Origin: Anaerolineae bacterium
GTDB lineage: Bacteria > Chloroflexota > Anaerolineae > Anaerolineales > Anaerolineaceae
DNA: 64,000 nt
Assembly (NCBI GenBank): GCA_013178295.1
Contig: JABLWW010000019.1
Span: 1-64,000 of the forward strand
Reading direction: 5' to 3'
The notes beneath the pieces are model-generated. The model was not told where the DNA came from. It saw only the letters and a program-made list of their open reading frames with translations, and ran no database searches. Of this stretch, positions 4,880 through 11,140 are shown piece by piece. How positions within the stretch are numbered: position 1 is the stretch's first letter; the number at the start of each line of letters is the position of its first letter. A program made the translations under genes and the position numbers.

Positions 4880-4954
4880 GGCGGCGGGCTGTCGCTTTGG
4901 CTTAGGCGGTGGGGTCGGCGGACACGGCGTGCCCGTCGGCGTGGTGCAGCGCGG

Positions 4955-5161
4955 GTGCAGCGTGAGGGCAGGGGTGGTTGTGCCTGGTGCAGCGTGAGGG
5001 TGGGGGCGTTGTGCCTGGTGCAGCGTGAGGGTGGGGGCGGTGTGCCTGTCGGTGCGGCGTGAGGGCGGGGGGCGATGTGCCTGTCGGTGCAGTGGGAAGG
5101 TGGGGGGGCGGTGTGCCTGGTGCAGTGGGAAGGTGGGGGGCGATGTGCCTGTCGGTGTGGC
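4955..5161. repeat. GC-rich tandem repeat array, about seven units
   Basis: Imperfect units of 31-35 bases start near 4955, 4987, 5018, 5052, 5087, 5120 and 5155. Each begins GTGCAGCG or GTGCAGTG-like, continues through a G-rich core, and ends in a TGTGCCTG-type stretch. The array lies downstream of the small DNA-binding-type gene at 5306 and outside any convincing gene. Open frames across it are low-complexity Pro/His/Arg on one strand and Gly on the other. Iteron-like function is possible but unproven. Confidence 0.65.
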
Positions 5162-5305
5162 GCGGCAAAGATGGAGGATGGTGCGCGGCGGTGCGCGGCA
5201 GGGATGCGGCGAGTGGCGACAGCAGGTGCAGAGCGTGGCTTGGCGGGGGATGAAGACGGGGAGCGGCGGCGGATCGGGTGCATTGCGCCGCAGCCCGACA
5301 GCCGC

Positions 5306-6586: not shown

Positions 6587-6591
6587 CCAGT

Positions 6592-6851
6592 GTACGCTTA
6601 AGTGCAGAAGGGGAACAGCGCGGCGTACGGTGTGGGTGGGCAGATGCAAAAAAGATACATCGGGGAAGATGTCGGAAATGCACTGGACATACAGCGCCCA
6701 CAGAAATATGCACTTAAGGGGATATCAAGTGGGGATTGGGCGTGCAGTCTGCACGGGCAAGAGCGGGAGGTATACCCTTAAGTGTATCAATGACGGGCTG
6801 AGCGTGTGGCATACACGGTCAAGTCGGATAAGAAGATACACTTAAGCGTAT
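6592..6851. repeat. four CTTAAG-centred operator-like palindromes
   Basis: The CTTAAG cores are at 6597, 6713, 6777 and 6841. The best copy is ATACACTTAAGCGTAT, and the third is ATACCCTTAAGTGTAT. Together they suggest a consensus ATACNCTTAAGNGTAT. The last three cores are 64 bases apart, about six helical turns. All lie between the ParB-like and antirepressor-like genes, with no gene in this stretch. They look like binding sites of one dimeric regulator. Confidence 0.7.
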
Positions 6852-6873: not shown

Positions 6874-6909
6874 GCGGCAAATGTGTGCCCGCGGGCACAC
6901 ATTTGCCGC
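6874..6909. repeat. 36-base perfect palindrome (parS-like candidate)
   Basis: A perfect inverted repeat of 18 bases per arm with no spacer. Its centre TGTGCCCGCGGGCACA is the same 16-mer found at the ParB-like promoter (8167-8182). It lies just after the 3-prime end of the ParB-like gene. Confidence 0.75.
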
Positions 6910-7014
6910 TGTTGCAGAGAGTGGGCGGCGCTGGCGGAAGGCGAGGCGGGTTGAAAGGCGGGGGCGGTGGCAGGCTGTGGCGGGCGGTGACAAACATGGC
7001 GCTGAAGGGGGACA

Positions 7015-8145
7015 CTATGCCCGCAGCCGCAGCTGACGGGCGAGGCTTTCCAGCCTCTCCGCCATGCGCAGGATCGGCTCGCGTCCCTTGAGCAGGACAC
7101 ACAGTGCATCCGCCAGCGCGGCGCTGTCAACCCCGCCGGGTGTGTCAACCCCTGCCAGCAGTGTTTTTACACGGCGGGCGGTGCGGGTGGCTGCGTCAGC
7201 CGGGCGCGGCGGTGTGGTGCGGACGCTATCCGCGGGGCGCGGGGCAGGCGGTGCGAGGCTGGGGATGTCCTCGGAGGTCAGCCCCTGCTCGATAGCGGCG
7301 GTCAGCGCCGCCTCCCACTGGTTTTTGGGCAGCTGGCGGATCTCGCGCAGGATGCGCTCGGGGACGTTGTACAGGTCGGCCATCTCCAGCAGATGATCGG
7401 GCAGTTCGAGGATTTGCAGATGACGCACCAGCGCCGGGCGTCCGATGCCCATGATGCGCTCGATCTCCGCCCAGGTGACGCGGGTCAGCCGCTTGTCCAG
7501 CGCGGCGCGGTGGTAATCGTTGCGCCCCTCCACCCCGTGCTGGGGATAGATGTCGTAAAAGTGCAGGATCAGCGCCGCCACTGCCCGGGCGCGGGTGACG
7601 GCGTTGGGGGTCTCGTATTTCTCGTTTTCTACCACCTGGCGGATGCGGTTGGGGGCGGCTACTGAGACAGCTTCCAGCAGCGGTTCATCCGAGAGGGCAT
7701 AGTACACAGTGTTGAGCGCCACCCCCCAAAAGCGCCGCTCGCCGGTTTCGAGGACAAACACGGTGCGCCCGTCGATCGTCTGCCATGATCCGGTGACGGT
7801 TTTCACCTGCCCGTATTCATGCATCGAACTGCCCAGCGAGAGCAGGGAATTGACCCGCTGAGCGATGGCGGGATGCTGGCGGGCAAGCTCCAGCCACTGA
7901 CGGGCGGCGTCATACCAATCAATCTCAAAGCGGAAGAAACGCTCGGCGATCTGCGGCGGAAGCAGCGTACGCGCCTGATAGGCATCCGGCATGATGCGGG
8001 CGATGGGGATCAGCTCCACCCGTTTGGCACTGGGGCGCCGGCCGCTGACAGGGGAGGCGCTGTCCTCCCAGTTGTCCTCCTGGCTGGCTTGCGGTGCGCT
8101 GGGCGAAAGCTGGCGGCTGGAAATTTGAACGCGTGGTTTGGGCAT
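7015..8145 (-). CDS. ParB-like partition protein
   Basis: Protein of 376 residues. AGGAGGTG before the ATG at 8145 fixes the start. After a disordered N-terminus the ParB N-domain begins at VELIPIARIMPDAYQARTL (about residue 50). It contains SMHEYGQVKTVTGS and the ParB-type ETGERRFWGV box (about 130-165), where classic ParB proteins have GERR. A helix-turn-helix region follows (LTRVTWAEIERIMGIGRPAL, about 240-260), then a variable C-terminus that may dimerise. It lies downstream of a ParA gene on the same strand. One copy of a 16-base palindrome lies on its promoter and another lies behind its stop codon. Confidence 0.8.
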   Translation of the reverse strand: MPKPRVQISSRQLSPSAPQASQEDNWEDSASPVSGRRPSAKRVELIPIARIMPDAYQARTLLPPQIAERFFRFEIDWYDAARQWLELARQHPAIAQRVNSLLSLGSSMHEYGQVKTVTGSWQTIDGRTVFVLETGERRFWGVALNTVYYALSDEPLLEAVSVAAPNRIRQVVENEKYETPNAVTRARAVAALILHFYDIYPQHGVEGRNDYHRAALDKRLTRVTWAEIERIMGIGRPALVRHLQILELPDHLLEMADLYNVPERILREIRQLPKNQWEAALTAAIEQGLTSEDIPSLAPPAPRPADSVRTTPPRPADAATRTARRVKTLLAGVDTPGGVDSAALADALCVLLKGREPILRMAERLESLARQLRLRA

Positions 8146-8166
8146 CGGTCTGCACCTCCTGGAAAA

Positions 8167-8192
8167 TGTGCCCGCGGGCACAATTAATTCTA
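8167..8192 (-). promoter_or_regulatory. ParB-like gene promoter with 16-base palindromic operator
   Basis: A minus-strand -10 TAGAAT (8192-8187) is followed at once by the perfect palindrome TGTGCCCGCGGGCACA (8182-8167), then the ribosome site and the ATG at 8145. This placement over the transcription start fits autorepression. Confidence 0.65.
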
Positions 8193-8427: not shown

Positions 8428-9309
8428 CTATCTGCCCGCCCCCAGCCGCCGCAGTACCTCCTCCACCAGCCGCGCAAATTCCTGTGCCGACGGCGAGGTG
8501 AACGCCATTTTCCCCTCAGCCTGCGGACGCGGCGGACGGTAGGAGAAGATGTCCAGCCCCTCGGTGTTGGCGACCGAGACCTCTGCCCGCTCACGGATGG
8601 GGTCAAACAGCAGCCCGCCGTATTCCTGTTGCAGCGCCTCCAGCACCATTTGCGCTTCGCTGCGCTGCAGGTTGCACTTGGAGGGCAGGATGCCCAGCAG
8701 CCGCAGGTTGCGGTTGAGCCGCCGCTGCACACGCTGCAGCGTGGCGTTCATATCCGGCAGGCTCGCCATTCCCAGCCCGCTGACTTCAACCGGGATGATC
8801 AGCACATGGGCGGCGGTCAGGGCGTTGAGCAGCAGCAGGTCATACGCCGGGCGGGTGTCAATCACCACGTAGCGGTAAAGCTGTTCCAGCTGCGTGATAC
8901 ACTCCGCCAGACGGTATTCCCTTGCCTCCGCCGAGACCAGCCGCTGGGCAGCCGCCGCCAGCGCCGGACGGTTGACGGGGATGTAGTCCAGATTGGATTG
9001 CGGCAGCAGGGTCGGGATGCGCGCCTGTTGCCGCAGGTCAACCACCGCCGGGGGGTTGTCGTCAGCCAGCAGATTAGCAATGGAAAGCTCGCTTGCTGTC
9101 TCTTCTCCTCCCCCATTTCCCCCGCCAAAAATGCCGTGTGAAACAATCGCCGCGGCGTTGCCCTGCGGATCCATATCAATCAGCAGCACGCGCTGCGGCT
9201 GACGCGGGTGTAAGCGATATTCATACAGCGCCAGCCCGGCGGCCAGGTTGACGGCGGTGGTTGTCTTGGCGACCCCGCCTTTCTGATTGGCGATAACGAT
9301 ACAATCCAT
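8428..9309 (-). CDS. ParA family partition ATPase
   Basis: Protein of 293 residues with a deviant Walker A box KGGVAKTTTAVNLA (residues about 10-23), Walker A-prime VLLIDMDPQGNA (about 41-52) and Walker B-like YVVIDTRPAYDLL (about 143-155). These define the ParA/MinD/Soj class of dimerising, DNA-surfing ATPases. AGAGGT precedes the ATG. It heads the leftward set with the ParB-like gene and is divergent from a second ParA gene at 9951. It differs clearly from that second copy, so the pair is not a recent duplication. Confidence 0.9.
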   Translation of the reverse strand: MDCIVIANQKGGVAKTTTAVNLAAGLALYEYRLHPRQPQRVLLIDMDPQGNAAAIVSHGIFGGGNGGGEETASELSIANLLADDNPPAVVDLRQQARIPTLLPQSNLDYIPVNRPALAAAAQRLVSAEAREYRLAECITQLEQLYRYVVIDTRPAYDLLLLNALTAAHVLIIPVEVSGLGMASLPDMNATLQRVQRRLNRNLRLLGILPSKCNLQRSEAQMVLEALQQEYGGLLFDPIRERAEVSVANTEGLDIFSYRPPRPQAEGKMAFTSPSAQEFARLVEEVLRRLGAGR

Positions 9310-9569
9310 GCAAACCTCTTTCGCATCCTTGTTGCCCGGTTAGTCCATGCCGTACTCTATTATATCGCTTTGTGCGCATGCCGCAGAAAACCGCAGCCGC
9401 TTTGCGCTGCGGGGATGGAGCGGCGCCAGAGCAGCACGCCGCTGTTTTTTGTCCGCCGCGGCGCGCCCACCCGCTTTTTTGCGTGCAGAGCGGGCTTGTG
9501 GGGTGGCAGGTATCCCCCAAACTCCCGCCATGGCGAAAGAGGCGAGATGGAAGGGGTTTGCAAAAATAA

Positions 9570-9659
9570 GGGTAGACGTTGTGGTACGTCAAGGTCTACC
9601 CTATAGGGATACCCTTTGACTTTTTAGGGTAGACGTTGTATAATTACAAGGGTCTACCT
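9570..9659 (+). promoter_or_regulatory. sigma-70 promoter overlapped by two GTAGAC/GTCTAC operators
   Basis: TTGACT (9616-9621), a 17-base spacer and TATAAT (9639-9644) form a near-consensus rightward promoter. Two inverted repeats with half-sites GGGTAGAC and GTCTACC surround it. One pairs 9570-9577 with 9594-9601, just upstream. The other pairs 9627-9634 with 9652-9658, spanning the -10. The left half-sites continue identically as GGGTAGACGTTGT. A small CCCTATAGGG palindrome (9599-9608) joins them. The arrangement implies tight repression by a dimeric regulator. Confidence 0.75.
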
Positions 9660-9950
9660 TATGAGGATAAACACGATGCTTTGCGAAACGCATTGCGCCA
9701 GCGCTGGTGCAGCCGCAGGACGCCGCCGCCACGCATGGCGCAGCGGGTCTCTGCGCTGTGTCTTATCTACGGCGCACAACCCCTCACCGGCAGCCGGGTA
9801 TCTGTGTTGCACGTGTGGCCTGCCGCAAGCGCAGGCATCTGTGCCGTCTACACATCACCTCCTGTCAGCCGCCGGGAGTCCGTGTTTTTTGTGCCGTCTT
9901 CCATCTCTATGGAGACCCCTTACAAACCAAATCACTGAGGAGCCAATCGT
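9660..9950 (+). other. long untranslated leader before second ParA gene
   Basis: About 290 bases separate the promoter at 9616-9644 from the ParA start. Overlapping short open frames exist here, but none has a ribosome site or protein-like composition. I see no clear riboswitch or hairpin. Confidence 0.4.
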
Positions 9951-10730
9951 ATGATCATTCTGGCAGTTGTCAATCAAAAAGGCGGGGTGGGCAAAACTAC
10001 CACCGCCGTCACGCTGGCGCATGGACTGGCACAGCGCGACTACCACACCCTGTTGATTGACCTTGATGCCCAGGGCAATGTGGCTGATTGTCTTGGGCTG
10101 GAAACAGGCAATGACCTCTACCGTCTGCTCTTTCCCGGCATGGCGCTGCCGCTGGCGCAGGGGGTAACTCCCAGCGGGCGCCCGCGGCTGGATGTCGTCC
10201 GCAGCGATCGCACCACCACCCAGCTCAAGATTGCTCTCGGCGCCGCCGATATGCGTGAGTATGTCCTGGATGACCTGCTCAAAGATGCCAGCTATGATGT
10301 CGTCATTCTCGACTGCGCCCCCTCAATGGATGTGCTCCACACAGCAGCCATGGTGGCGGCGCATTATATCCTCATCCCTACCCGCCTTGACCAGCTGGCG
10401 GTCAAGGGAGTGCGCGATGTGCTCACCACCCTGCAGGGGCTGAGCCGCATCAGTACCTGTCAGCTGGGGGCGATCATCCCCACCTTTTACGACCGCCAGA
10501 CCAATGAGAGCCTGCTGCAGCTCAAACATCTGGCGCGGCATTTCAAAGAACAGGTTTGGCCGCCCATCCCGCAGGATGTTCACTGCCGCGAATCGACCCG
10601 CTATGGTAAAACGCTGTGGGAGTATGCCCCGCAGGCACGGGCGCTGCTCGGGTATACACACACACGCGGGCAGAGTGTGGGCGGGTATATCCAGATGGTG
10701 GACCGTGTGGAGGAGGTACTGCTGCGATGA
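9951..10730 (+). CDS. ParA family partition ATPase (second copy)
   Basis: Protein of 259 residues with the deviant Walker A NQKGGVGKTTTAVTLAHG (residues 8-25), the A-prime box LLIDLDAQGNVADCLG (about 34-49) and Walker B YDVVILDCAPSMDVL (about 105-119). GAGG lies before the ATG. It overlaps the next gene by ATGA, so the two are translationally coupled. Compared with the ParA at 8428 it is shorter and closer to the plasmid/Soj type. Control is probably through the GTAGAC operators upstream. Confidence 0.9.
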   Translation: MIILAVVNQKGGVGKTTTAVTLAHGLAQRDYHTLLIDLDAQGNVADCLGLETGNDLYRLLFPGMALPLAQGVTPSGRPRLDVVRSDRTTTQLKIALGAADMREYVLDDLLKDASYDVVILDCAPSMDVLHTAAMVAAHYILIPTRLDQLAVKGVRDVLTTLQGLSRISTCQLGAIIPTFYDRQTNESLLQLKHLARHFKEQVWPPIPQDVHCRESTRYGKTLWEYAPQARALLGYTHTRGQSVGGYIQMVDRVEEVLLR

Positions 10731-11140
10731 GCCCGGCAAGACGAAAACCCGCTGAAGGCGACAATTTGATTGATTTTGACCCCGCCGCCCTGCGCGCTGA
10801 TCCGGCCGTGCGGGCGCTGATCGGGCAGGAAGAGCGCCTCAAACAGGAGGCGCGCCTCTCGCGCCGCCAGCGCGAAAAGGTGATCAAGGAGCGGCGCAAA
10901 ATCCGCGAGCGCCGCGAGCAGCACACCTGCTACGACATCCCGCCGCAGCTGCGCCAGTATATCAAGACGCTGGCAGAGGAGCTGCGTTTGCCCGCCAGTC
11001 AGATCGCTGCCCTGGCGCTGCTGCGCTTTGCCCGCGACTGGCAGGCAGGGACGATTGACCTCGCCCCCTATAAGCGCCCCTCACGCAGCCCCAAATATGA
11101 CTGGAACCTGGAACTCGATCCGGCCGAGTGGGGCGTCTAG
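10727..11140 (+). CDS. small basic protein coupled to ParA
   Basis: Protein of 137 residues whose ATG overlaps the ParA stop (ATGA). Residues about 35-70 are a highly charged, Arg/Lys/Glu-rich helix (LSRRQREKVIKERRKIRERR). They are followed by YDIPPQLRQYIKTLAEELRL and PASQIAALALLRFARDW, which resembles a ribbon-helix-helix strand-helix-helix unit. The C-terminus is Tyr/Pro/acidic. The position directly after ParA is where plasmids encode the centromere-binding partner (ParB or ParG type). It is also the best local candidate to bind the GTAGAC sites. Function is inferred from context. Confidence 0.65.
   Translation: MSPARRKPAEGDNLIDFDPAALRADPAVRALIGQEERLKQEARLSRRQREKVIKERRKIRERREQHTCYDIPPQLRQYIKTLAEELRLPASQIAALALLRFARDWQAGTIDLAPYKRPSRSPKYDWNLELDPAEWGV

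Follow-up and report, generated by a model that had tools for sequence, protein, structure and literature searches.

A rare 16-bp palindrome flanking a divergent parB gene as the putative parS of a replicon-specific partition system in Anaerolineae

The perfect 16-bp palindrome TGTGCCCGCGGGCACA, found on both sides of a divergent parB gene of an Anaerolineae bacterium, is most likely to be the cognate parS of the protein encoded at 8145-7015 (we put the probability at about 0.87), and parA1, parB and this putative parS would together form a partition system specific to its replicon and distinct from that of the chromosome. It would belong to a diversified family of protein-site pairs that probably serve the inheritance of large additional DNA molecules. 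This reading is based on sequence comparison, and we infer the centromere role of the palindromes from homology and layout. The DNA analysed, hereafter the window, is the initial 64 kb of contig C11 (109,793 bp) of the source genome and contains the following features:

6874-6909, no strand: 36-bp perfect palindrome with copy 2 of TGTGCCCGCGGGCACA as its core (6884-6899), 105 bp past the parB stop; putative parS
7015-8145, minus strand: parB, divergent HTH-type ParB homologue of 376 aa, ATG at 8145 and stop at 7015
8167-8182, no strand: copy 1 of TGTGCCCGCGGGCACA, in the parA1-parB gap, 21 bp 5′ of the parB ATG; putative parS and parB operator
8428-9309, minus strand: parA1, ParA ATPase of 293 aa, directly upstream of parB on the same strand
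9951-10730, plus strand: parA2, second ParA ATPase, divergent in the window
10616-11140, plus strand: orf174, probable ribbon-helix-helix partner of ParA2

Both 16-base perfect palindromes, described in an earlier note on this DNA, are read directly in the sequence at 8167-8182 and 6884-6899, the latter forming the core of GCGGCAAATGTGTGCCCGCGGGCACACATTTGCCGC, a perfect palindrome of 18+18 bp. The window holds these two exact copies, with two further sequences appearing only at three mismatches, and the whole genome (3,953,309 bases in 21 contigs) has no other exact copy, its reversed control being found 0 times. Copy 1 is flanked, as judged by eye, by a -10-like TAGAAT and an AGGAGG ribosome-binding site; its earlier placement on the promoter of the ParB-like gene is fair by position, although the promoter scan (threshold 9 of 12) called no sigma-70-like promoter there. 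Other repeats are seen in the same region: four near-palindromes with a CTTAAG core (for example, ATACACTTAAGCGTAT), iteron- or operator-like in appearance, occupy 6591-6606, 6708-6723, 6772-6787 and 6836-6851, in the stretch separating the 36-bp palindrome from an Ant-like gene (P22_AR_N, 6548-5688), and degenerate GGTGCAGCGTGAGGG-like units were noticed by eye in the intergenic stretch at approximately 4950-5180.

Taken alone, the window ParB gives in Pfam a sub-threshold match to HTH_ParB only (E 0.032) and no model at E ≤ 0.001, and searches in NCBIfam and PHROGs returned nothing relevant. Among 46 family members, ParB_N and HTH_ParB are recognized at E ≤ 0.001 in 14 and 12, respectively, and the profile of 46 relatives matches solved Noc, Spo0J, ParB and KorB chains with a best E of 1.7e-14. 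The nucleotide motifs GERR (135-138) and EN (173-174) are invariant in all 46 members, and the organization characteristic of the HTH-type ParB family, i.e., an N-domain with GERR and EN followed by HTH, is found by both profile and fold. The AlphaFold2 model of the window protein (mean pLDDT 88.6) places the HTH helices at 222-232 and 236-245, the recognition helix thus spanning approximately residues 236-245 and including Arg241; helices 64-71 and 77-90 occupy an N-domain insertion of about 35 residues relative to Noc (profile positions 61-99 against Noc 47-51 in the profile alignment). The top structural matches of the model in VIA-align, namely KorB (Z 12.6), Noc (12.3) and ParB (12.0), are tied, the best Foldseek matches are likewise Noc, ParB/Spo0J and KorB, and the SopB structure row 3mkz scores Z 5.6. 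Judged by profile and predicted fold, the window protein is a divergent ParB.

Its partner ParA1 matches AAA_31 in Pfam (E 1.1e-34) with the domain beginning at residue 2, and has no N-terminal HTH extension. Two hallmarks of ParABS are present, a parA gene adjoining parB and a small number of palindromic sites grouped around the par locus. Of 80 related loci, 78 show a ParA match beside ParB, while L103 and L112 are cut at the parB 5′ end. The row ParA1-ParB-ParA2-orf174 recurs in 21/80 related loci and also in L112, which is cut before parA1; the ParB system and the ParA/RHH-like pair thus travel together, the second pair being divergent in the window. Comparison with relatives suggests that the true start of orf174 is likely the ATG at 10727, overlapping the parA2 stop. 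In the orf174 family RHH_3 is matched at E ≤ 0.1 in five of 22 members (best 1.5e-4); orf174 of the window gives no RHH_3 match at E ≤ 0.1, and its fold search ended without a significant match. Upstream of parA2, the repeats GGGTAGAC and GTCTACCC (9569-9660) are possible sites of orf174, and a promoter-like TTGACT-17-TATAAT lies at 9616-9644.

Across the same taxonomic family, TGTGCCCNNGGGCACA was detected in 27 of 147 genomes, giving 69 sites, and its reversed control in none. The ParB profile produces some match in 121 of these 147, mostly weak matches to canonical ParB, and a strong one (E < 1e-50) in 59. In 26 of the 27 site-bearing genomes all copies (68 sites) reside on the contig with a strong ParB match, no farther than 4,817 bp from it and never within it, the widest cluster spanning 6.1 kb; in 25 of these 26 the distance from the match to its nearest copy is at most 150 bp. 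The few and clustered copies predicted for a parS are therefore what was found, with two in the own genome and proximity to a ParB homologue in almost all site-bearing genomes of the family. Within genus g16 the sites are present in 24 of 29 genomes and strong ParB in the same 24, the other five having neither; the exact probability of such a split, calculated by hand and ignoring relatedness, is 1 in 118,755. Strong ParB without this 16-mer is observed in 33 of the 59 genomes, as expected if other sites are used there, and the loci read among them mostly carry other palindromes. Counted as chance were the sole site of G164, located on a different contig from its ParB, and the single TGTGCCC site of G057, with no ParB in the 18 kb read there.

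For comparison at the level of loci, the best 80 of 166 confirmed relatives (79 labelled as Chloroflexota or its subgroups, one as Desulfobacteraceae) were combined with the window, a paralogue from contig C5 of the same genome and the plasmid plas-ZRK, making 83 in total. The same perfect palindromic half-site appears at least twice per locus in 33 of them, against 0-1 in each of 20 dinucleotide-shuffle sets. When perfect 7+2+7 palindromes outside parB are considered, a half-site common to at least two loci is found in 56/83 (0-2 in shuffles), or in 54/83 if L076 and L081, which share only the incidental-looking AAAACCC, are dropped. The most frequent half-sites are TGTGCCC (28 loci) and TGTAACC (14), followed by CGTAACC (4), TGTTACC (3), GTTGCCC (3), CGGAACA (2) and TTTGCCA (2); GGAAATT and AAAACCC, also with two loci each, look incidental. 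In none of the 83 loci does a perfect site belonging to the five main families fall within parB. The five main families are absent from 19/83 loci, several of which have other palindromes; in L082, L116, L132 and L133 no convincing palindrome was found, and two loci, L115 and L125, are truncated where their contigs end. At the thresholds used, no relative was detected in viral contigs or phage records.

Separate lineages add sites of their own. Plasmid plas-ZRK (CP069395, circular, 179,736 bp) carries three perfect copies of TTTGCCACGTGGCAAA, with the TTTGCCA half-site, at +11, +91 and +311 behind parB. Among the nine rows of a distant clade, eight possess their own palindrome 4-11 bp past the parB stop, three of these with one mismatch, and their half-sites include GTTACCC, GTTACCG, GTAACCA, ATTGCCA, GTTGACA and others; in L120 the palindrome overlaps the parB stop. 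Also in the distant clade, several of the loci L128, L130, L131 and L134-L138 show by eye, directly past the palindrome downstream of parB, a purine-rich stretch resembling a ribosome-binding site and a very short ORF, a layout that looks as if the palindrome were the operator of a small gene. L124, from a metagenome-assembled genome labelled Desulfobacteraceae, has two perfect copies of TGAAAACGCGTTTTCA, which precede the parB reading frame by 106 and 28 bp; by its label it is a related parB outside Chloroflexota, and it may be a mis-binned contig. The own genome encodes a second ParB, the 41%-identical paralogue on C5, with TGTAACCGCGGTTACA right after its stop. In a set of 61 genomes ParB homologues were detected in 16 (own genome included), and TGTWACCGCGGTWACA is present in six, one copy each, always within 2 kb of a ParB homologue. 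GTWACCNNGGTWAC was found in all 12 fetched loci of the C5-paralogue lineage showing the 3′ part of parB; being short and common genome-wide (33/61 genomes, the reversed control being equally common in many), its genome-wide counts are not taken as evidence.

Variation of the sites is accompanied by variation in the recognition helix, which was aligned for 77 of the 83 loci (proteins of at least 300 aa), with 75 entering the tree. In window numbering, residue 241 is Arg in 25/25 countable TGTGCCC rows and Gln in 27/27 YGTWACC rows, one row of each family being omitted because of X or gaps; it is Arg also in both TTTGCCA and all three GTTGCCC rows, and Tyr in both CGGAACA rows. Residue 236 is Arg across these site families except for TTTGCCA (Gln in 2/2). 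Of the more divergent representatives, L128 from the distant clade combines Gln241 with GTCWACC, having one mismatch between the halves, its sister L120 has Arg with ATTACCT, and L078 has Gln241 with an imperfect RCGAACC. Worded post hoc, these data suggest the hypothesis that Arg241 is associated with G:C at base 4 or 5 of the half-site, and Gln241 with W4 A5; the narrower rule that Arg means C5 is broken by L131 and L135 (Arg241, G4 A5). Because the tree shows only a handful of correlated changes, chiefly a single one in the YGTWACC clade together with L128, the helix code is treated here as a hypothesis. The window ParB itself sits on a long branch and pairs with L059, with weak support (93/85), at a distance from the remaining TGTGCCC clade; their common TGTGCCC site must accordingly be either ancestral or convergent. 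Aligned by eye with the Caulobacter helix, residue 236 presumably corresponds to Caulobacter position 173 and residue 241 to the conserved N178. In Caulobacter ParB/Noc, Arg173 contacts G at base 1 and Gln173 prefers A (PMC7383237). The recognition helix of the Noc/NBS and ParB/parS specificity pair thus shows an Arg/Gln alternation of the same kind as our family; the varying position differs, being 241 (presumably equivalent to N178) here and 173 there (PMC7383237). Taken together, the similar placement of the palindromes of homologues and the base changes that track changes in the recognition helix lend strong comparative support to the earlier suggestion that the palindrome is a ParB recognition site.

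The same body of data bears on other explanations. The palindromes might be autoregulatory operators of parB or parAB only, with no centromere role, and ParB a KorB/VirB-like regulator. In favour of this, 22 of the 28 TGTGCCC loci have a copy no more than 150 bp upstream of parB (eight have one at most 150 bp behind it); KorB is the first in the VIA-align list, though tied with Noc and ParB, and ParA1 is deprived of the N-terminal HTH it would need to act as the repressor. However, 26 of the 29 YGTWACC loci have the site within 150 bp behind parB, where a parB operator is impossible, and just two within 150 bp upstream, while the adjoining parA, the plasmid case and multiple copies suit partition better, which renders a purely operator function improbable. 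It may also be supposed that the palindromes bind not ParB but the Ant-like P22_AR_N protein, the RHH protein encoded at 5635-5309 or orf174, since further DNA-binding genes and repeats do exist in the region. Against this, in the related loci, which were fetched by ParB, an Ant match is seen in 2/80 and RHH in 0/80, orf174 is found in one TGTGCCC locus, the scan starting from the site encounters strong ParB beside it in 26/27 genomes, and it is the ParB helix that tracks the site sequence; we regard binding by any of these proteins as very unlikely.

Least probable of all appears a coincidental sharing of the 16-mer, with the 36-bp palindrome being a transcription terminator or a REP-like element. 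As RNA this palindrome does form a strong fold (-38.6 kcal/mol, z -4.9), and the terminator scan flagged the copy at 8167-8182 as terminator-like on the plus strand; still, on the parB strand no T run directly follows the 36-bp stem, five T being situated about 16 bases further, the genome has only two copies, and relatives conserve the half-site sequence, beyond mere pairing. The terminator reading was rejected.

Returning to TGTGCCCGCGGGCACA as a putative parS, the following course of events may be proposed. Through its HTH, a dimer of ParB would recognize both half-sites, Arg236 lying near the outer G and Arg241 at the G4/C5 step. If it behaves like its relatives, it would then take up CTP, form a closed clamp and spread outwards from both sites, and the DNA marked in this way would be moved by ParA1. 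ParB bound at copy 1 should also damp its own expression, since this copy lies between the -10-like TAGAAT and the ribosome-binding site, and the lack of a DNA-binding extension in ParA1 is in line with a placement suited for ParB self-repression. Judging from its position, this copy probably serves autoregulation of parB by its product.

The chromosome probably has a partition system of its own, as two perfect copies of chromosomal parS TGTTTCACGTGAAACA are present in the genome (C18:33994 and C18:34030), and contig C12 encodes a ParB_N protein (E 6.0e-30) with an adjoining ParA match; a weaker ParB_N match is found on C21. The palindrome of the window does differ from the chromosomal parS, as claimed before, with no match within two mismatches. 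C11 contains none of the genome's 44 tRNAs, and neither does C5, though tRNA density alone is not decisive; no end overlap indicative of circularity was detected for C11, C5 or contig C2 of genome G029. Pfam analysis of 18 larger C11 proteins gave matches for nine, comprising sensor/signalling and transport components, a glycosidase and a glycosyltransferase, the other nine matching nothing and no replication gene being seen among the 18. The GC content is 0.615 in C11, 0.628 in C4 and 0.616 in C7, and 10-kb samples of 17 of the 19 other contigs fall in the range of 0.475-0.572. C11 may accordingly belong to a second replicon. Alternatively, binning may have wrongly included C11, C4 and C7 (the reported contamination is 4.95), and the two ParBs would then not necessarily come from one cell. 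Both two-contig genomes with strong ParB, G029 and G083, have the match on contig C2, and G083 appears to be plas-ZRK by matching coordinates.

Among well-known systems, SopB/sopC of the F plasmid resembles the one described here in that a palindrome whose halves are separated by two bases lies downstream of the par operon; sopC is a tandem array of about a dozen sites, whereas here 2-4 copies are dispersed. Palindromic parS sites specific to one replicon have been described in Burkholderiales (PMC5450999), Thermus (PMC4409726) and Streptomyces SCP1 (PMC13245405). Bsr systems of Burkholderiales secondary chromosomes and plasmids likewise have a 16-bp palindromic parS that varies between replicons, each with a cognate ParB, the main chromosome keeping TGTTTCACGTGAAACA; the differences are that here another phylum is concerned, the half-sites are unlike the T-rich Bsr sites, and the divergent ParB has about 35 extra N-domain residues (PMC5450999). 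In the dual ParABS of Streptomyces SCP1, each parAB operon is surrounded by three identical inverted repeats, with strict specificity and less conserved CTPase domains as further common traits, the repeats being of 13 and 19 bp versus 16 bp here and the second system here consisting of ParA and an RHH-like protein (PMC13245405). In parABSm of the Thermus thermophilus megaplasmid, a megaplasmid-specific palindromic parS exists beside the 16-bp chromosomal parS, as in our case, but this 14-bp site is inside parB (PMC4409726), where the 83 loci have no perfect site of the five main families. A literature text search with six palindromes returned a single paper containing one of them, to judge from its abstract in a microRNA assay, and among the matches listed by title in the open literature there was no study of a ParB/parS system for Chloroflexi, Chloroflexota or Anaerolineaceae. 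Thus ParABS as a kind is already known, and what is new is the unusually rich family of sites and its one-residue covariation, formulated post hoc and relying on few independent events.

In a wider and tentative perspective, to which we give somewhat less than even chances, secondary replicons of Chloroflexota would have undergone a radiation of mutually orthogonal ParB-parS pairs with at least 10 half-site types (several in one locus only), where residue 241 (Arg, Gln or Tyr) would set half-site bases 4-5 and compatibility would evolve by paired single changes in protein and centromere, the same site doubling as the parB operator and the system being joined in one lineage to a ParA and RHH pair. 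The window and dozens of related loci, including those of the named species Ornatilinea apprima and Longilinea arvoryzae, supply predicted centromeres for a phylum with little-studied plasmid biology. They also offer new candidate ParB-parS pairs of the kind reportedly used in DNA labelling (PMC11109969, PMC11798528), and a natural series of putative cognate pairs for studying switches of partition specificity, and the palindromes may flag second replicons in draft genomes.
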